A DNA stretch of 64,000 nt from Negativicutes bacterium (GTDB lineage: Bacteria > Bacillota > Negativicutes > Veillonellales > Veillonellaceae): contig SAAC01000005.1 of NCBI GenBank assembly GCA_009929605.1, forward strand, positions 1 to 64,000, in the 5' to 3' direction. Numbering within the stretch: position 1 is the first letter of the stretch; each line of letters starts with the position of its first letter. Of this stretch, positions 2,894-62,965 are shown one piece after another. The notes under the pieces were generated by a model. It did no database searches and was not told where the DNA came from. It saw only the letters and a program-made list of their open reading frames with translations. Made by a program: the position numbers and the translations under genes.

Positions 2894-2982
2894 TTAATCT
2901 ATAAAGTGATGGTAGAGTCGGGTACAAATATTTTATGCCAATTCAGTTTTCTTAAGTAATAGGTAGTTATGAGGAGGTAATT

Positions 2983-4701
2983 ATGGAACAGTTTGATGTT
3001 CTAGTAGTAGGTAGCGGCGGCGCAGGTATGCGTGCGGCTTTAGAAGTAGGTCGTCGTAAAGGCTTGAATGTTGCGCTTATTACAAAAATTTTCCCAACAC
3101 GTTCTGCAACAGCAATGGCACAAGGTGGCGTTAATGCTTGCTTGAACAATGTGGCACCAGAAGACACTATCGAAACACATACTTTCGATACAGTAAAAGG
3201 GTCTGACTATCTTGGTGACCAAGATGCGATCGAATTCTTCTGCTCTAAATGTCCAGAAGGCGTTCTTGAAATGGACCATATGGGTGCTCCATTCTCTCGT
3301 ACAGCAGAAAACAAAATTGCACAACGTAATTTCGGTGGTCAATCTTACCCACGTACTAGCTACAGTGCGGATAAAACTGGTCACGTTATTCTTCACACAA
3401 CTTATGAACAATGCCTAAAAGAAGGCGTACACTTCTTACAAGAATGGTACTTATTGGATTTAATCCAAGTTGATGGTGTTCTTGGTGGCGCAGTTATCTG
3501 GAACATGAAAAAAGGCAAAGTAGAAACTATCAAAGCAAAAGCTATTGTAATGTCTACTGGCGGTGCTGGTCGTATATTCTGGACTCGTACAACTAACCCA
3601 TTCCTTTCCACAGGCGATGGTATGGCAGCAGCATTCCGTGCAGGTTGTGGTTTGAAAGATATGGAAATGATTCAATTCCATCCAACTGGCCTTGGTAAAA
3701 CTGGTATCTTGATGTCCGAAGCCGTTCGTGGTGAAGGTGGGTACCTTCTTAATTCCGAAGGCGAACGTTTCATGAAAAAATATGCGCCAAACAAAATGGA
3801 ATTAGCATCTCGTGACGTTGTTGCGAAAGCTATCGAAGTAGAAATCGCTGAAGGCCGTGGCTTTGGTGGTACAGGTCTTGATGCGTATGTAGTGGCTGAC
3901 CTTCGTCACTTGGGACCAGAAGTTATCATCGAAAAACTTCATGGTATCCGCGACCTTGCTATGTGTTTCGAACATTGTGATCCATTGGTACAACCAGTAC
4001 CTATTCGTCCTACAAATCACTACATCATGGGTGGTATCGACGTTGTGGACTACAAAACTTGTGCTACTGAAATCAATGGTTTGTTCGCATCTGGCGAATG
4101 TTCCAATATCTCCATCCACGGTGCCAACCGTTTAGGTGGTAACTCCCTAGCTGACGGCGTTGTATTCGGTAAAGTATCTGGTGCTGGTGCAGCAGACTAT
4201 GCTGAAAAACATGACCAAATCAACTGTGATGCTGAATTACAAGCATGTGCAGAGGCTTGGGAAGGTAAATTCAAAGAAGTAACTGGCCGTACAGCTGGTC
4301 GTCCAGTAGTAGAAATTCGTGATGCTTTGGCTAATGCAATGTGGAATAAATGTGGTATCTTCCGTGATGAAGCACGTATGACAGAAGCATTGAACGAAGT
4401 TAACGCATTAATCGAAGACTACAAAACTTGCTATGTAGGTGATACTGATCGCAATTACAACATGGCATTCGTAAACTACTGTGAAATCGGTTCCATGTTA
4501 ACAGTAGCGAAAGCTATCGTTTCTGGTGCGCTTTGGCGTAAAGAATCCCGCGGTGCTCATACTCGTGATGATTATACTAAACGTGATGACGAAAATTATC
4601 TCGTTCATTCCATCCAAAAATTACGCGAAGATGGCGAATATGAAATGTCTACACGTCCTGTAGTGTTCACTAAATACCAACCAGAAGAAAGGAAGTACTA
4701 A
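2983..4701 (+). CDS. frdA: Fumarate reductase/succinate dehydrogenase flavoprotein subunit
   Basis: FAD subunit that interconverts fumarate and succinate; in a lactate fermenter the reductive direction, toward propionate, is likely. Seen: N-terminal dinucleotide fold VVGSGGAGMRAAL, substrate-site motifs RGEGGYLLN, SRDVVAKA, HYIMGGI and HGANRLGGNSLADG, and C-terminal ESRGAHTRDDY. 572 aa is normal. Odd: the covalent-flavin motif RSHT of E. coli SdhA/FrdA reads R40-S-A42-T here, so the FAD-linking His is replaced by Ala and FAD is probably held non-covalently. The start follows GAGGAGGT. It is first in an operon with frdB (1-bp gap) and an HdrB-like gene. Confidence 0.96.
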   Translation: MEQFDVLVVGSGGAGMRAALEVGRRKGLNVALITKIFPTRSATAMAQGGVNACLNNVAPEDTIETHTFDTVKGSDYLGDQDAIEFFCSKCPEGVLEMDHMGAPFSRTAENKIAQRNFGGQSYPRTSYSADKTGHVILHTTYEQCLKEGVHFLQEWYLLDLIQVDGVLGGAVIWNMKKGKVETIKAKAIVMSTGGAGRIFWTRTTNPFLSTGDGMAAAFRAGCGLKDMEMIQFHPTGLGKTGILMSEAVRGEGGYLLNSEGERFMKKYAPNKMELASRDVVAKAIEVEIAEGRGFGGTGLDAYVVADLRHLGPEVIIEKLHGIRDLAMCFEHCDPLVQPVPIRPTNHYIMGGIDVVDYKTCATEINGLFASGECSNISIHGANRLGGNSLADGVVFGKVSGAGAADYAEKHDQINCDAELQACAEAWEGKFKEVTGRTAGRPVVEIRDALANAMWNKCGIFRDEARMTEALNEVNALIEDYKTCYVGDTDRNYNMAFVNYCEIGSMLTVAKAIVSGALWRKESRGAHTRDDYTKRDDENYLVHSIQKLREDGEYEMSTRPVVFTKYQPEERKY

Positions 4702-4702
4702 G

Positions 4703-5665
4703 ATGAGACAAATCACCTATCATATCCACCGTTACCAACAAGGCCGCGCATATGTACAGTCCTTCTCTTTTGATTATGAACCAGACCGTACTCTTTTATG
4801 GGGCTTACAAAAAATTAAAGATGAACAAGATCCTACATTGACTTTCTTGGCAGCTTGTCGTTCCGCAGTTTGCGGCGCTTGCTCCATCCGTGTAAACGGC
4901 GAAGCAATGCTTGGCTGTGAATCTAAAATCGACGAAATCACAGAACGTTTTGGCTCTGATGAAATCGAAATTGCTCCTATTGGCAACTTTAAGGTTCTTC
5001 GTGACTTAGTTGTTGACTGGGAATCCAAAGTTGATCGTCTCCGTACGGTTGCTCCTTGGATCTTCTTGAAAGCTGAGTTTAACGAAGGCGACAAAATCGT
5101 TCGTCAAACTCCAAAAGACTTCAAAAAATTCGTGGCTGGTACAGAATGTATCCTTTGCGGTTGCTGTGTTTCCGAATGTAATAAATTGACTGCACGTCAA
5201 GATGACTTCTTAGAACCATATGTATTCACAAAAGCTAACCGTTTCGTATTGGATAGCCGCGATGATGCTCCTATGGCTCACATCAAACCTGCATTCGATA
5301 ATGGCTTATGGAATTGCGTTCATTGCATGAACTGTATCTCCCGTTGCCCTAAACATTTAAAACCTGCTCAAGATATTTCTAACTTGCGTAAAGAAGCTAC
5401 AAAAGCTGGCTTGACAGACAGCAAAGGTGTACGCCATGCAGTAGCTTTCAAAGAGGACTTGATGAAAACTGGTCGTTTGAAAGAAGTTTCTATGAGCTTG
5501 AAATCTGATGGTGTTGTAGATTCCGCTAAACAAGCAGTGTATGCATTGCGTTTGTGGAAACACAGCAAAATCAATCCATTCGAACTTATCGTTCCACAAA
5601 AACCAGTTAATGGTATCGATGGCGTTCGTACACTTGTGAAAGCAGCAGAGGAGGCAAGTAAATAA
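4703..5665 (+). CDS. frdB: Fumarate reductase/succinate dehydrogenase iron-sulfur subunit
   Basis: Electron-transfer subunit between the flavoprotein and the third subunit. Seen: N-terminal plant-type [2Fe-2S] ferredoxin domain with cysteines in CRSAVCGACSIRVNGEAMLGC, and a C-terminal domain with two cysteine sets, CILCGCCVSEC and CVHCMNCISRCPKH. 320 aa is longer than the roughly 240 aa of E. coli FrdB; the extra length is a C-terminal tail after the cysteine clusters. It starts one base after the frdA stop and its stop overlaps the next start at 5665. Confidence 0.95.
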   Translation: MRQITYHIHRYQQGRAYVQSFSFDYEPDRTLLWGLQKIKDEQDPTLTFLAACRSAVCGACSIRVNGEAMLGCESKIDEITERFGSDEIEIAPIGNFKVLRDLVVDWESKVDRLRTVAPWIFLKAEFNEGDKIVRQTPKDFKKFVAGTECILCGCCVSECNKLTARQDDFLEPYVFTKANRFVLDSRDDAPMAHIKPAFDNGLWNCVHCMNCISRCPKHLKPAQDISNLRKEATKAGLTDSKGVRHAVAFKEDLMKTGRLKEVSMSLKSDGVVDSAKQAVYALRLWKHSKINPFELIVPQKPVNGIDGVRTLVKAAEEASK

Positions 5666-6540
5666 TGAAATACGCATTTTTCCCAGGTTGCGTACTTGAA
5701 AGCGCAGCGAAAGAAGATTACTTAGCAACCGTTGCAGTCGCTCGTAAATTAGGTATCGAAATAGAAGAACTTGATGGTTGGACTTGCTGTGGCGCATCTC
5801 ATGTACAAGACATCGCTCCAGAAGTTACACTTGCTACTAATGCTCGTAATATTGCATTGGCAGAAGAAAAAGGTTTGAACCTTTTAACTGTATGTAATAC
5901 TTGTACTTTGATGCTTCGCGAAGCTAAAAACGAATTAGACAAAGACGCAGCTAAAAAAGAAGAAGTTAACAAACAATTAGCACAAATCGGTAAACAATAC
6001 CGCGGTACTATTGATGTAACTCATTTCTTGTGGGTGTTGATCCGCGATTACGGTTTGGACAAATTGAAAGCTAAAATCGTAAAACCTTTAACTGGTTTGC
6101 GTGTAGCTGAATACTATGGTTGCCACATTCTTCGTCCACAAGAAGAATTAGGCTTTGAAGATTATCAAGTGCCTACATCCTTAGCAGATTTAATTACTGC
6201 TATCGGTGCAACCCCAATCGATTTCTCCCGTAAATTAGATTGCTGCGGTTTCCATGCTGTATACCCTGCACATGATTCCGTAATGCAAATGACTGGCTCC
6301 ATCAATAACGATGCAGCTAAAGAAGGCGCTGATTGCGTGGTAACTCCATGCCCATTGTGCCAAATGCAATTGGATATGTTCCAAAAAGAAGCTAAAGCAG
6401 TTGTGGGTGGCGACAAAGATATGCCTATCTTACACATGTCCCAATTAATTGGCTTGGCTCTTGGCATCACTCCTGAAGAAATGGGTATGCCTGCACGTCA
6501 TTTGACTAGCACTGCACCAGTACAAAAATTTGTTGGCTAA
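5665..6540 (+). CDS. HdrB-like CCG-domain subunit of the fumarate reductase operon
   Basis: Related to heterodisulfide reductase subunit B and to the E subunit of non-classical succinate dehydrogenases. Seen: two cysteine-rich CCG modules, the first with FFPGC, TCCGASH and CNTC, the second with YYGCH, DCCGFH and TPCPLC. No membrane helix is visible. It shares an operon with frdAB and takes the place where a cytochrome b gene would normally be. In thiol:fumarate reductase (TfrB) such a module is fused to the FrdB-like part; here it is separate. The electron donor is unknown. A strong terminator follows 75 bp downstream. Confidence 0.88.
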   Translation: MKYAFFPGCVLESAAKEDYLATVAVARKLGIEIEELDGWTCCGASHVQDIAPEVTLATNARNIALAEEKGLNLLTVCNTCTLMLREAKNELDKDAAKKEEVNKQLAQIGKQYRGTIDVTHFLWVLIRDYGLDKLKAKIVKPLTGLRVAEYYGCHILRPQEELGFEDYQVPTSLADLITAIGATPIDFSRKLDCCGFHAVYPAHDSVMQMTGSINNDAAKEGADCVVTPCPLCQMQLDMFQKEAKAVVGGDKDMPILHMSQLIGLALGITPEEMGMPARHLTSTAPVQKFVG

Positions 6541-6614: not shown

Positions 6615-6642
6615 AAAGCCCCCGGCTCTGCCGGGGGCTTTT
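6615..6642 (+). terminator. Rho-independent terminator of the frd operon
   Basis: Stem AAAGCCCCCGG / CCGGGGGCTTT with 5-base loop CTCTG, followed by TT. Confidence 0.93.
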
Positions 6643-56552: not shown

Positions 56553-57290
56553 ATGAAAATTCATTTTTTCCAACAGTGTTTGATTGACATGTTCTACCCA
56601 CATGTTGGAATGGCTGGTGTACACGTACTTGAAAACTTAGGCTGTGAGTTAACAGTTCCTAAGAAACAAGTATGTTGTGGTCAGATGTTTACTAACTCTG
56701 GTTATAATGAAGCGGCTATGGGCGCTATCAAGAACACTATCGAATGCTTCGAAAATGCTGAGTATGTAGTTAGTATGTCTGGTTCTTGTGCATTTGCGAT
56801 TCGTGATGAATATCATCATTTCCTTAAAGATCAACCAGAATGGTTGGAACGCGCAGATCGTTTGAGCGGTAAAGTCTATGAATTTACAGATTTCATCGTT
56901 AACGTATTGGGTGTGGAAGATGTAGGCGCTCGTTTCAACGAGACAATTACATATCACACATCTTGTCATGTTACTCGTTTGATGGGGATTAAAGAACCTC
57001 CATTCAAATTACTGTCTAACGTAAAAGATTTGACTCTTATTGATCTTCCTCGCAAAGATCGTTGCTGCGGTTTCGGTGGTACTTTCTCCGTGAAAAATGC
57101 CGAATTGTCTGAAGCAATGAGTCGTGAAAAAGCAATGGAAATCGCTGGTACTGGTGCTAACGTTGTCGTTGGTTCTGACCAAGCTTGTTTGATGAACATG
57201 GCTGGTATGCTTGATCGTCTTCATAAAGAAGGAGTTATCAATCGTCGCATCAAGGCTATGCATATTGCTGAAATCTTGAACTGCCGTTAA
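56553..57290 (+). CDS. lutA: Lactate utilization protein A
   Basis: Iron-sulfur subunit of the LutABC L-lactate oxidation complex. Seen: HFFQQCLIDMFYP, CCGQMFTNSGYNEAA, and the second CCG motif DRCCGFGGTFSVK, the two cysteine-rich CCG modules. 245 aa is standard. The start follows GAGGGTG. It is first in the lutABC operon, 12 bp before lutB. Lactate is the main energy source of Veillonella. Confidence 0.96.
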   Translation: MKIHFFQQCLIDMFYPHVGMAGVHVLENLGCELTVPKKQVCCGQMFTNSGYNEAAMGAIKNTIECFENAEYVVSMSGSCAFAIRDEYHHFLKDQPEWLERADRLSGKVYEFTDFIVNVLGVEDVGARFNETITYHTSCHVTRLMGIKEPPFKLLSNVKDLTLIDLPRKDRCCGFGGTFSVKNAELSEAMSREKAMEIAGTGANVVVGSDQACLMNMAGMLDRLHKEGVINRRIKAMHIAEILNCR

Positions 57291-57302
57291 GGAGGAGACG
57301 AC

Positions 57303-58751
57303 ATGGCACTTATATATGACAATCGCCCCTACAAAACACGTATTAAAGAATGTTTAGCTAATGATTTTGCTCAAAAAGCAATCATGAAAGCACAAGACGT
57401 GTTTTATGAAAAACGTAATAATGTAGTTGGTTTAGTTCCTGAATGGTTAGATTTCCGTGCAGAAGCGGCATCTCTTCGTGACCATGTATTGAACAATTTG
57501 GACTACTATGTAAGTCAATTTGCTGAAAACGCAGAAAAAGCTGGTGCTCACGTATACTTTGCAGATGATGACAAGGATGCTACTAGCATTGCTCTCGAAA
57601 TCTTGAGAAAAAAAGAAGCTAAGATGATTGTTAAATCTAAAACAATCCTTACAGAAGAAATTGCTTTAAATGAAGTGCTTGAAGAAGCTGGCATTGAAGT
57701 AAATGAAACTGACTTAGCAGAATTTATTTTGCAAACAGCTGATTGCAATCCACCGTCTCATATCGTAGTTCCAGCATTGCACTTTGAACGTACAAGAATT
57801 CGTAAAACATTTGCAGAAAAATTGGGCTACACTGGCACAGAGGATCCAGAAGAAATGACTCATTTTGTACGTAAACTCGTACGTGAACGCTTCCTTAAAG
57901 CTGACGTTGGTGTTAATGGTTGTAACTTTGCCGTAGCTGCAAGTGGTACATGTACTATCGTTTCCAACGAAGGTAACGGTCGTATGTCTAGCTCTATTCC
58001 TAAAACTCAAATGATCTTTGTAGGTACAGAACGTATTGTTCCTGACTTCAAAGCTCTTGATATTATGATGGAAATGCTAACACGTTCTGCTACAGGTGCT
58101 AAAATTTCTAACTACTTCTCCATGATGACTGGTCCAGCTAAGTCTGGCGAAGCTGATGGTCCAGAAGAAACTCATATCATTATTGTTGATAATGGTCGCT
58201 CTGGTATTTTGGGTGGTGAATTCCAAGATATGTTACGTTGTATCCGTTGTGGTGCATGTATGAATATCTGCCCAGTATACCGTCATATTACAGGACATGG
58301 TTATGGCTCTGTATATCCAGGACCAATGGGTGCTGTATTGACTCCATTATTCGTAGGCTACGAAGTAGCTGGCGATCTTCCTTATGCATCTACTCTTTGT
58401 GGTGCATGTACTGAAAACTGTCCAGTAGCAATTCCACTTCACGAATTGTTAATGAAACATCGTGAAATTCAAGCTGACGTAATAAAAACTCGTCCAGCAG
58501 CGGAAAAAGCAGCTTATACAGCAGCAGCAAAAGTATTTAGCAATGCTACCTTGTTTGACCTTGGTACAAAAGCTGGTGCTATCGGCATGAAAATGATTGC
58601 TAATAATGAAGGTAATATGCCTGAATGGACAAAAGTATTACCAGTTCTTGGTGGTTGGACTCAAGCTAAAGAAATGGGTACATTATCCATTAAGAAATTC
58701 CGTGATGTCTATGCCGAACATGAAAAGAAACGTAATAAGGAGAAAAAATAA
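57303..58751 (+). CDS. lutB: Lactate utilization protein B
   Basis: Large iron-sulfur subunit of LutABC. Seen: LUD-domain-like N-terminal two-thirds with SEGNGRMSS-type loop (VSNEGNGRMSSSIPKTQM), then two [4Fe-4S] cysteine sets, CIRCGACMNICPVYRH and CGACTENCPVAIP. 482 aa is standard. The start follows AAGGAGGA. Its stop overlaps the lutC start by one base. Confidence 0.96.
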   Translation: MALIYDNRPYKTRIKECLANDFAQKAIMKAQDVFYEKRNNVVGLVPEWLDFRAEAASLRDHVLNNLDYYVSQFAENAEKAGAHVYFADDDKDATSIALEILRKKEAKMIVKSKTILTEEIALNEVLEEAGIEVNETDLAEFILQTADCNPPSHIVVPALHFERTRIRKTFAEKLGYTGTEDPEEMTHFVRKLVRERFLKADVGVNGCNFAVAASGTCTIVSNEGNGRMSSSIPKTQMIFVGTERIVPDFKALDIMMEMLTRSATGAKISNYFSMMTGPAKSGEADGPEETHIIIVDNGRSGILGGEFQDMLRCIRCGACMNICPVYRHITGHGYGSVYPGPMGAVLTPLFVGYEVAGDLPYASTLCGACTENCPVAIPLHELLMKHREIQADVIKTRPAAEKAAYTAAAKVFSNATLFDLGTKAGAIGMKMIANNEGNMPEWTKVLPVLGGWTQAKEMGTLSIKKFRDVYAEHEKKRNKEKK

Positions 58752-59467
58752 TGGATGCAGCTAAACGTAATGAATTCATCGGACGTTTATCTCGTGCATT
58801 AGGCCGAGATAACGGCGCTTGCCCTACTAGCGTACCTGACTTTGACTATAGTAAAGGTCCTCAAGAAACTATGTATAGTGATTTGAGTCGTGACCAAATC
58901 ATTACTATGTTTAAAGAAGAATGTGATCGCAATGGCACAAAATATGTAAATACAACACCAGATAAATTGGCTGAAACTGTTATTAAAACTATCGAAGACT
59001 GGGGAAATGGTCAAGTTATTTACCCTAATGTTCCAGAAGTTGAACAATATGGTTTAGATAAAGCCTTTGCTGCTGATAAGAGTGATGCTCGATCCTATGT
59101 ACAATGGGATGCGTCAAAAGGTCGTGAAGCTAATATTATGGCAGCACAAGATTCTGCAGTAGGTATTACATTTGCTATCGGTGGTTTAGCTGAAACAGCA
59201 TCCATCGTACAACCTAGTACAATCGACAGCGGTCGTGCTATCAGCTTGCTACCAAATACACATATTGCTATCTTGAAAACAGACAGCATTATGCCTCGTA
59301 CAACACAAGCTTTTGAAATGTTAGGCGCTATGCAAAAAGAAGATCCAGCAAACTTCCCTGCTAATGTGGTGTTGATTTCTGGTCCTTCCAATACCGCCGA
59401 TATCGAGTTGATTCGTGTAAACGGCGCTCATGGTCCACTTCAAGTAACATATATCTTGGTAGACTAA
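58751..59467 (+). CDS. lutC: Lactate utilization protein C
   Basis: LUD-domain subunit of LutABC. Seen: SVGITFAIGGLAETASIV, the family's conserved STID(S)GR loop and a C-terminal LISGPSNTADIELIRVNGAHG. 238 aa. Start at 58751 overlaps the lutB stop. A terminator follows about 40 bp on. Confidence 0.95.
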   Translation: MDAAKRNEFIGRLSRALGRDNGACPTSVPDFDYSKGPQETMYSDLSRDQIITMFKEECDRNGTKYVNTTPDKLAETVIKTIEDWGNGQVIYPNVPEVEQYGLDKAFAADKSDARSYVQWDASKGREANIMAAQDSAVGITFAIGGLAETASIVQPSTIDSGRAISLLPNTHIAILKTDSIMPRTTQAFEMLGAMQKEDPANFPANVVLISGPSNTADIELIRVNGAHGPLQVTYILVD

Positions 59468-59706: not shown

Positions 59707-59766
59707 GTTAAATCCTATAATTAGAGTATGGATATAATAAATGTAATTTTGGAAGGAGTTTTAAAC

Positions 59767-61170
59767 ATGGATATTCCGTTTTTTAAAGAATTTCTAATGC
59801 TTAGTAATCCACTGTCAGTTGCTATTGTAATTGTATTTATTTTGGCATTGTTTGGCGTATATGCATTGCAACGTAAAGGTGTATCATTTGGTACATTAGT
59901 GGGCGCGGGTACAATTATTGGTGCTGTATTGGGGATTGCTATTCAAATCTTGGCTGGATTTCCTAATGATCCAATGAAGGTCATTTACATTCAAGAAAGC
60001 ACCAAATGGTTTTTGCTAGTAGGTGGTGGATTCATTGACTTGATCCGCATGCTTGTTATCCCATTGGTATTCATTTCTATTGTTCATGTTATTCTTAATA
60101 TGACTCAAGGAACAAATCTAAAAAAATTAGTGGTAGCGATGTTATCTACAAACCTTGGTATGGTAGCTGTAGCAGCTATTGTTGGTTTGGCATTAGGTAG
60201 CGCCTTTGGCCTTGGGACAGGTCTTGATCCTGTAGAAGGTAATGCTAAAATGCGTGAAGTAAAACCTGTTATCGATACATTCCGTGCATTGATTCCAAGT
60301 AATCCTGTGAAAGCAATGGCGGATACAAATGTTATCGCTGTGGTTGTGTTTGGCGTTATCATTGGCGGCATTGCACGTTTGATTAAACAAACTGGTACTA
60401 ATGAACTTGTTAACTTCACTAAATTGTTTGATGAATTACATCTCATTATTTCTTGGGTGGCAGATTTTGTTATTGGATTGATGCCATATGGCGTAGTTGC
60501 TTTGTTAGCTTCCACATTGGCACAACGAGGTTTACAAGCTGTTATTGATATGGGCTTGTTCGTAGTATTGCTTTATGTTGGTATCATCGTTATGTTGGTG
60601 GTACAAGCAATTTTGCTTACTGTATTTGGTGTAAATCCTATTACGTACTTTAAAAAAGCAAAAGCGCCATTGGTTTTGGCCTTTACATCTCGCTCCAGTA
60701 TGGGTGTGTTGCCATTAACAGTGGAAACTTTGACTACTAAATTGGGTGTTAATGCAACAACAGCTAATACAGTTGGTAGTTTTGGTACAACAGCTGGTAT
60801 GCAAGGTTGCGCCGGCGTATTCCCTGGTTTATGCGTAGTGTACATTGCTAATATCGCAGGAGTTCCTTTGGATGTAACAATGTACATCATGAGTGTTATC
60901 GTCATCGCTATCGGTTCTGTTGGTATCGCAGGCGTACCAGGTACTGCTACTATGGCAGCATCTGTTTCCCTTTCTGGTACAGGTCTTGGTGCATTCTTCA
61001 CTTCTATTTCTCCAGTATTGGCTATCGACCCAATTATCGACATGGGCCGTACAATGCTTAATGTTAGTGGTACTATGAGTAATGCTATCGTGGTAGATAA
61101 AATCATGGGAACCTTTGATGAAAGTGCCTTTAATGAACTTGATGCAGAAGAAATAAAACAAGGGGCATAA
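59767..61170 (+). CDS. Dicarboxylate/amino acid:cation symporter (TcyP-like)
   Basis: DAACS-family secondary transporter, 467 aa. Seen: about eight TM helices, DLIRMLVIPLVFISIVHVIL, FTSRSSMGVLPLTVETL (substrate-hairpin region), GTTAGMQGCAGVFPGLCV and GRTMLNVSGTMSNAIVV with the NVSG-like transport motif. The form is close to cystine/serine-type members. The ATG at 59767 follows GGAAGGAG; an upstream ATG at 59728 lacks that site. Substrate uncertain. Confidence 0.88.
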   Translation: MDIPFFKEFLMLSNPLSVAIVIVFILALFGVYALQRKGVSFGTLVGAGTIIGAVLGIAIQILAGFPNDPMKVIYIQESTKWFLLVGGGFIDLIRMLVIPLVFISIVHVILNMTQGTNLKKLVVAMLSTNLGMVAVAAIVGLALGSAFGLGTGLDPVEGNAKMREVKPVIDTFRALIPSNPVKAMADTNVIAVVVFGVIIGGIARLIKQTGTNELVNFTKLFDELHLIISWVADFVIGLMPYGVVALLASTLAQRGLQAVIDMGLFVVLLYVGIIVMLVVQAILLTVFGVNPITYFKKAKAPLVLAFTSRSSMGVLPLTVETLTTKLGVNATTANTVGSFGTTAGMQGCAGVFPGLCVVYIANIAGVPLDVTMYIMSVIVIAIGSVGIAGVPGTATMAASVSLSGTGLGAFFTSISPVLAIDPIIDMGRTMLNVSGTMSNAIVVDKIMGTFDESAFNELDAEEIKQGA

Positions 61171-61408: not shown

Positions 61409-62965
61409 ATGATTTCTGAAGATATAAAATACAAGTTAATGTCCGATTTTTCGGACTTTCAAAATATCACAAGAAAATTTTATAACAAGGAAATATCTGT
61501 AGCGGAATATAAAGGTTTATCTGGTAAGTTTGGCAGTTATGCAGAGCGTGGTGGAAACTCTAGTATGTGTCGCTGGCGTTTTGAGGGCGGTCGCATTCTG
61601 CCAGATCAAATGAAATTCATGTTCGACATGATTCGTCGTTACAATTTGGGTCATATGCATTTTACAATGGGTCAATCCATTCAGTTCCATCGACTCAATG
61701 GGGAAACGGTATTAGCACTCTATGAAGCTTGTTCTGAACATGGCATTTATAATCGTGGTGCTGGTGGGGATAACCCAACGAATCTTGCTGCCAGTGTATT
61801 ACGAGGTATTGATCTGCACGAAACCTTTGATATCAGCCCTTATGTGTCGGCGTTGAGCGATTACATGATTGAACAAGTGCCATACTTGAAATTGCCACGC
61901 AAATTCAAGGTAGCCATCGACAATGGTATCGATGATGCGCCACATGCAACGATGAAAGATTTTGGATTCCACCTCACTGCTAATGGAACATTTGACGTGT
62001 ACGCTTGTGGTGGCATTGGTCCCAGCCCACAAATGGGGATTAAGGTAGGCGAAGACGTGGCGCCTGTGGATATTCTGTACTATGTGAAAGCTATGTTTAT
62101 GGTATTTATGAATTATGGTAACTATAAGCAACATAGCAAGGCGCGTAGCCGTTTCCTTCCAGAATTCATGGGAGGACAGGAGAAATTCCTATCCGTATAT
62201 CATGAAACGTTAGACATGGTGAAAGAAATGGAACAACTCACCATCAATCCGGCAGATTACGCCGTACCTATTACCAAGGTGGGTGTTGTAGATGATGCGG
62301 TCCTAAATTATCGCATCGGTAAACAAAAACAAGAGGGCTTATATTATGTGGAATATCATCCAGCAGCTGGTTTTGTAGAGGTACCACATTTCCTAGATGC
62401 TCTTGAATACGCTAGTGGACTACATCAAGTAGAAATGCGTTTAACCCCAGATCAAAGCGTGTATATCATTAATCTTACTGCTGACGAAGCACGCGAAATG
62501 GTAAAATTATTACCTATCAGCGCAGAAAATACCTTTGAAAGTTCCATTTCTTGCGTAGGTAATACAATTTGCCAAATTGGTATCCAAGATTCCAATGGTT
62601 TATTGAATTCTATTTTTAGACATTTGAAAGCAAATGATGTAGATACATCCAAATTACCTCGTTTGTATGTATCTGGGTGTCCCCATTCTTGTGGGGTCCA
62701 CCAAATCGGTACCATTGGATTCCATGGTTCTGTAAAAATGGTGGATAAGAAACCACAACCTGGTTTTGCTCTCATGGATGGTGGTTCTGATGAAATTGGG
62801 ACAGAGCAATTTGGTAAGATGATTGCTACCATTGAAGCCGTTCGGATTCCTCTGTTTATAGAAGAATTGGCAAATATACTAAATAGTAATGATGCTGTAG
62901 ATTATGCTACATGGCGTAAGGAGCATAATGATGAATACATGGCGCTGGTGGAAAAATATAACTAA
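61409..62965 (+). CDS. Sulfite/nitrite reductase (siroheme and [4Fe-4S])
   Basis: Single-chain assimilatory-type reductase, 518 aa. Seen: GGNSSMCRWRFEGGRI, GAGGDNPTNL, and the cofactor-ligand cysteines CVGNTIC (C-x5-C) and CPHSC (C-x3-C) near residues 390 and 430. It reduces sulfite to sulfide or nitrite to ammonium; sequence alone does not decide. The start follows AAGGAG. It lies downstream of the symporter but behind its own terminator. Confidence 0.9.
   Translation: MISEDIKYKLMSDFSDFQNITRKFYNKEISVAEYKGLSGKFGSYAERGGNSSMCRWRFEGGRILPDQMKFMFDMIRRYNLGHMHFTMGQSIQFHRLNGETVLALYEACSEHGIYNRGAGGDNPTNLAASVLRGIDLHETFDISPYVSALSDYMIEQVPYLKLPRKFKVAIDNGIDDAPHATMKDFGFHLTANGTFDVYACGGIGPSPQMGIKVGEDVAPVDILYYVKAMFMVFMNYGNYKQHSKARSRFLPEFMGGQEKFLSVYHETLDMVKEMEQLTINPADYAVPITKVGVVDDAVLNYRIGKQKQEGLYYVEYHPAAGFVEVPHFLDALEYASGLHQVEMRLTPDQSVYIINLTADEAREMVKLLPISAENTFESSISCVGNTICQIGIQDSNGLLNSIFRHLKANDVDTSKLPRLYVSGCPHSCGVHQIGTIGFHGSVKMVDKKPQPGFALMDGGSDEIGTEQFGKMIATIEAVRIPLFIEELANILNSNDAVDYATWRKEHNDEYMALVEKYN

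Follow-up and report, generated by a model that had tools for sequence, protein, structure and literature searches.

A type-E fumarate reductase of Veillonella that lacks the FAD-linking histidine and an export signal

How does a fumarate reductase obtain its electrons when it has lost the residue that covalently links its flavin adenine dinucleotide (FAD) and when its operon carries no cytochrome b gene? This question is raised by the frdA-frdB-sdhE operon at positions 2983-6540 of contig SAAC01000005.1 (GenBank assembly GCA_009929605.1), which we analyzed within a stretch of 64,000 nucleotides (the window) and against its genome (Veillonella, 2.01 Mb, 99.4% complete), putting genome-wide questions as family (profile) searches. 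A first-pass annotation of the locus had left the donor wide open between a thiol, a quinol, and a soluble carrier and had compared the locus above all with archaeal thiol:fumarate reductase. Instead, the closest characterized enzyme is MfrABE of Wolinella succinogenes, which likewise has a separate CCG gene and an alanine at the FAD site and binds FAD non-covalently, and the central puzzle has largely been answered already for this homologue. The explanation that we favor, with a probability of roughly 0.8, is that the operon encodes a type-E ("non-classical") quinol:fumarate reductase facing the cytoplasm, in which FrdA and FrdB are combined with an HdrB-like anchor subunit, SdhE.

The three open reading frames were recovered at the coordinates listed in Table 1 and form a compact unit: a single base separates frdA from frdB, and frdB and sdhE overlap by one base. 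Alignment bore out the earlier reading that the FAD-linking histidine is replaced: within the segment FPTRSATAMAQGG, Ala42 of FrdA aligns exactly with the FAD histidine of Escherichia coli FrdA. Across the aligned family members this column holds alanine in 42 rows and histidine in 20, and the PDB chains among the alignments listed carry histidine there. A sequencing error was considered as the source of Ala42 and rejected, as every Veillonellaceae FrdA that is readable at this site has alanine. The catalytic residues H233, E246, R277, H346, and R383 are all retained in the alignment to E. coli FrdA and, as judged from the sequence, the fumarate site is intact and the covalent FAD anchor alone is lost. 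The expected consequence of Ala42 is that FrdA likely binds FAD non-covalently, by analogy with the W. succinogenes enzyme ("SdhABE"/MfrABE), which has Ala86 at the histidine site and non-covalent FAD and in which the A86H exchange alone gives covalent attachment (Juhnke et al. 2009, PMC2680327). Among named sequences, FrdA of Veillonella montpellierensis is the closest (86-87% identity), and identity to bona fide MfrA from Sulfurospirillaceae is 49%.

The separate two-CCG, HdrB-like subunit and the missing cytochrome b gene, both described in the first-pass annotation, were also confirmed. SdhE contains two PF02754 CCG repeats, whose ten cysteines are invariant across 21 type-E SdhE proteins; it aligns with HdrB over its full length with all ten cluster cysteines kept, and an AlphaFold model of SdhE alone (pLDDT 89.4, pTM 0.89) matches HdrB chains at a TM-score of 0.92. 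No cytochrome b gene lies in the operon, and a genome-wide search for the Sdh_cyt family (PF01127), which had matches in 7 of 14 control genomes, returned none in this 99.4% complete genome; the type-D anchors PF02300 and PF02313 were not searched. Nor does any subunit contain a hydrophobic stretch resembling a membrane helix (Kyte-Doolittle, 19 residues; maximum 1.05 in SdhE and 1.4 in FrdB). FrdB carries the ligands of a 2Fe-2S cluster, one 4Fe-4S set, and a second set of the form CxxCxxCxxxC. Because Cys208, invariant in nine relatives, stands where classical succinate dehydrogenase (SDH) subunit B (SDHB) has a residue other than cysteine, we predict a 4Fe-4S instead of a 3Fe-4S center as the third cluster. 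PDB searches yielded no solved type-E structure.

With respect to class, the locus shows the three features of type E that were examined: A and B subunits of the SDH/fumarate reductase kind with their catalytic residues, an HdrB-like SdhE in place of the anchor and haem b, and the extra B-subunit cysteine. The cytochrome b-type or transmembrane anchor of classical quinol:fumarate reductases (types A-D) was found neither in the operon nor in the PF01127 search. Among curated NCBIfam models, those for 8-methylmenaquinol:fumarate reductase (MFR) are the best match for FrdB and SdhE and the second best for FrdA. Of the MFR hallmarks, the enzyme has alanine at the FAD site; it lacks scores above the curated cut-offs and the periplasmic subunits exported by the twin-arginine translocation (Tat) system. 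On these sequence grounds we assign it to type E and not to the MFR equivalogs. It would thus represent a known architecture in an uncharacterized, probably cytoplasmic branch, distinguished from the characterized Ala-type enzymes by the missing export signal.

This missing signal is well delimited. No in-frame start exists upstream of frdA: its start codon is the first to follow a stop, and the encoded protein opens at the Rossmann motif, so that no room is left for an N-terminal Tat signal. Since a TatC gene was found in each of the ten genomes tested, the analyzed one included, the absence is a property of the enzyme; a Veillonella without a Tat system was rejected as its cause. Because the export signal is missing, FrdA probably works inside the cell, and in this it would depart from the W. 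succinogenes enzyme, which is Tat-exported to the periplasm (PMC2680327).

As to the donor, a quinol is most likely, a view that leans on the homologue: the purified W. succinogenes enzyme reduces fumarate with quinols and shows no succinate oxidation (PMC2680327). Genes for the entire menaquinone route (MenF, D, H, C, E, B, A, and G) are present in the genome, which makes a quinol the default donor, and menaquinone production by Veillonella is stated in a review (PMC8042841). MenF, MenD, MenH, MenB, MenE, and MenC cluster with a MenI-like thioesterase at positions 5152-13362 of contig C177; MenG is encoded on contig C232, and MenA, at locus L005, falls just under the TIGR00751 cut-off, with its other best models all describing the same enzyme. 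For the methylated quinone we used NF006385, an epsilonproteobacterial HemN-like family taken as MenK-like by inference, given that Campylobacter jejuni CgdH2 groups with MenK (PMC10320005). This model scored above cut-off in two Sulfurospirillum genomes (549, 543, and 513 bits), and three Veillonella genomes stayed below it (best ≤138 bits); other types of menaquinone methyltransferase were not modelled. With the complete menaquinone pathway and no Campylobacterota-type MenK found, plain menaquinol is favored as the donor.

Three other accounts have to be weighed. HdrB-type subunits elsewhere take electrons from soluble partners. FrdAB-SdhE could accordingly be a soluble enzyme fed by ferredoxin, flavodoxin, or a flavoprotein and not by the quinone pool, which would suit the absence of transmembrane helices from all subunits as well as the mismatch between the methylated-quinol preference of MFR and the quinones predicted for this genome. 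We regard this as unlikely: the operon holds no gene for HdrA, ferredoxin, or electron-transfer flavoprotein, the characterized homologue oxidizes quinols, and the full menaquinone pathway is kept even though the genome has no strong fumarate reductase besides FrdABE. Less probable still is a thiol:fumarate reductase in which the CCG subunit draws electrons from a low-molecular-weight dithiol or a pair of such thiols, in the way that coenzyme M (CoM-SH) and coenzyme B (CoB-SH) serve archaeal TfrAB. The closeness of SdhE to the HdrB structure, its ten cysteines, and the CCG module of TfrB speak for it, but SdhE scores 363 bits with the MFR anchor model against 234 with HdrB (TIGR03288, below its cut-off of 345) and 39 with TfrB, the HdrB loop CCGAGGG reads CCGFH in SdhE and in all its type-E relatives, and the Wolinella homologue gave <0.01 U/mg with CoB-SH/CoM-SH (PMC2680327). 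Moreover, the only other gene with CCG domains in the genome, at 56553-57290 of the window, is a lactate-utilization gene. Least probable of all is an SDH that oxidizes succinate, the role presumed for His-type type-E enzymes in aerobic Bacillaceae. The operon layout is shared and FrdA is about 55% identical to theirs, but Ala42 argues against it: without the histidine, E. coli FrdA and yeast SDH no longer oxidized succinate (reported in PMC2680327). The Ala-type Wolinella enzyme shows no such activity either, and the sampled His-type loci all lie outside the Negativicutes (Bacillaceae and other Bacillota).

In the type-E quinol:fumarate reductase that we favor, SdhE would be attached to the membrane from the cytoplasmic side and would not span it, and a quinol, most likely menaquinol, would be oxidized at or beside SdhE on that face, the quinol site being placed by analogy with Wolinella. 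Electrons would then pass from the SdhE clusters through the two 4Fe-4S clusters and the 2Fe-2S cluster of FrdB to the non-covalent FAD of FrdA, which would reduce fumarate from cytoplasmic metabolism to succinate in the succinate/propionate route. Because FAD should keep a low potential with Ala42, the enzyme would act essentially one way, toward succinate, again as in Wolinella.

Several observations weigh against this explanation. Its weak point is the choice of quinol: the Wolinella enzyme reached only 0.1 U/mg with a menaquinol analogue versus 0.9 U/mg with an 8-methylmenaquinol analogue (PMC2680327), and the genome may not make the methylated form. Given this preference and a Veillonella seemingly without MenK, this branch must either have changed its preferred quinol or rely on another donor. 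SdhE shows no strong amphipathic helix (best hydrophobic moment 0.49) that would support its presumed membrane binding. All three MFR scores lie below their cut-offs (667/1100, 329/600, and 363/500 for NF042982, NF042952, and NF042965), and a Sulfurospirillaceae homologue used as a positive control passes all three (1199, 612, and 579); these bit scores were tried and rejected as a means of telling Ala types from His types, since they do not set the window enzyme apart from His-type enzymes. We found no biochemistry of the Veillonella branch in the literature. Finally, a study of Veillonella dispar lists a "frdC, cytochrome b subunit" in a transcriptome figure (PMC10100942). As no Sdh_cyt protein was found in the analyzed Veillonella genome, this label is possibly an inherited annotation or a mislabel of an sdhE-type gene.

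We next consider how widely the arrangement occurs. The third gene of the operon is present in all Veillonellaceae genomes sampled (split over contig ends in one) and was not found in families f2-f4 of the same order. Across a sample of the class, 93 of 200 genomes had a match to sdhE, with scores falling into two groups. Of the matches above 300 bits, the ones with neighborhoods that were read lie mostly behind frdA and frdB; three weaker ones that were inspected (~170-190 bits) do not. Among 80 loci from named relatives, with Tat signals called by a simple motif match, 26 have alanine without Tat (among them all Veillonella checked, Sporomusa malonica, Desulfosporosinus, Lucifera, and Anaerospora), 26 have alanine with Tat (among them Selenomonas, Mitsuokella, Propionispira, Sporomusa acidovorans, and Sulfurospirillum), 20 have histidine without Tat (among them Neobacillus, Anaerobacillus, Robertmurraya, Sporolactobacillus, and some metagenome-assembled Peptococcaceae genomes), and none has histidine with Tat; the remainder are three FrdA fragments and five loci where no FrdA was found. 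A tree from all columns places the Ala rows on one side of a branch (89/89). The single His-to-Ala change that it implied was dropped once the trait columns had been removed, as the best tree then needs two changes, with a single Ala clade not rejected (p-AU 0.35). The aligned sequences fit one or two losses of the FAD histidine.

This sampling turned up further observations. His-retaining type-E FrdABE is widespread in Bacillaceae and their relatives, and one operon type thus holds a natural His/Ala/Tat series. V. montpellierensis DSM 17217 (L133 and L137) carries two frdABE copies, the second frdA being broken by masked N, with residue 42 unreadable; this truncated frdA and a 2757-aa frame around ubiE in Veillonella parvula were set aside as artifacts of runs of N. 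Positions 1480-2800 of locus L194 hold pieces of several genes (DUF454, part of a HutW/ChuW radical-SAM protein, and others), either a pseudogene mosaic or a misassembly.

FrdABE is the everyday fumarate-reducing enzyme of Veillonella, a bacterium of mouth and gut: the succinate/propionate route depends on fumarate reduction, and no other strong fumarate reductase was found in the genome. A second one was rejected, the only other strong FAD_binding_2 protein being the alpha subunit of adenylylsulfate reductase (AprA). We lean, by a modest margin over even odds, toward the fuller proposal of a type-E enzyme in Veillonella and some further Negativicutes that faces the cytoplasm, works one way, and has no covalent FAD, with plain menaquinol being oxidized at an HdrB-like monotopic subunit; if true, this would be a functional class distinct from both the periplasmic MFR and the His-type type-E SDH. 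A bolder version, with a soluble or thiol donor, we consider less likely. The proposal raises the question of how a quinol can be oxidized by a subunit of the HdrB type that has two CCG clusters and lacks a membrane helix. The natural series (His without Tat, Ala with Tat, and Ala without Tat) offers matched enzymes for relating covalent FAD to direction and membrane side to quinol choice. Our sample also extends the absence of the histidine, which in 2009 was stated to be restricted, among succinate:quinone oxidoreductases, to the W. succinogenes and C. jejuni enzymes (PMC2680327), to many Bacillota.

Table 1. Features of the frdABE operon in the window
Feature	Position	Strand	Basis
Shine-Dalgarno AGGAGGT of frdA	2972..2978	+	read directly
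frdA (sdhA/mfrA-like), type-E fumarate reductase flavoprotein, 572 aa, without Tat signal	2983..4701	+	open reading frame, family models, MfrA identity
Codon gca for Ala42, replacing the FAD-linking His	3106..3108	+	alignment to E. coli FrdA and relatives
frdB (sdhB/mfrB-like), 320 aa; 2Fe-2S, 4Fe-4S, and predicted second 4Fe-4S (extra Cys208), type-E pattern	4703..5665	+	
sdhE/mfrE-like subunit, 291 aa; two CCG domains, ten conserved Cys, HdrB fold, without transmembrane segment	5665..6540	+	
Intrinsic-terminator-like hairpin AGCCCCCGGC-TCT-GCCGGGGGCT-TTT, GC-rich with T run, at operon end	6617..6642	+	read by eye, unscored

Around the operon, a divergent OmpR-type two-component system lies upstream of frdA at 71-2123, separated from it by 860 bases. 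At 56553-59467 stand LutA/LutB-type lactate-oxidation genes, namely the CCG gene mentioned above, a LutB/LldF iron-sulfur protein, and a third gene without an NCBIfam match, followed by a dicarboxylate-transporter-like gene at 59728-61170. Two similar-looking NirA/sulfite-reductase-type proteins were seen, one in the window (61409-62965) and one at 788-2338 of locus L010. Close to the latter are AprA and genes apparently for sulfate activation and ABC transport, which suggests sulfate assimilation via an AprA-type enzyme.

Compared with known systems, the enzyme shares with MfrABE of W. succinogenes and C. jejuni (formerly "SdhABE") the A-B-E gene order, the alanine at the FAD-histidine site, the second 4Fe-4S pattern of the B subunit, and a separate ten-cysteine SdhE without transmembrane segments, and MfrA-type proteins of Sulfurospirillum are 45-49% identical to its FrdA. 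It differs from MfrABE in the missing Tat signal, in falling below the three MFR cut-offs, and in a genome without a Campylobacterota-type MenK homologue. The type-E enzymes of the Bacillaceae Neobacillus, Anaerobacillus, and Robertmurraya have the same A-B-E operon, also without Tat, but keep the FAD histidine (RSHT). Within the Negativicutes, FrdABE of Selenomonas, Mitsuokella, and Propionispira has the same operon and the alanine, whereas its SRRxFIK Tat signal should make it periplasmic. Archaeal TfrAB resembles the window enzyme in its FrdA/FrdB homology and its CCG module, yet there the module is fused to TfrB, to which SdhE scores weakly, and in the window it is an open reading frame of its own. 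Methanogen HdrB, finally, has the fold and the ten cluster cysteines in common with SdhE and differs in the loop of the second CCG domain, in the bit scores given above, and in its partners, which in the window are FrdA and FrdB.

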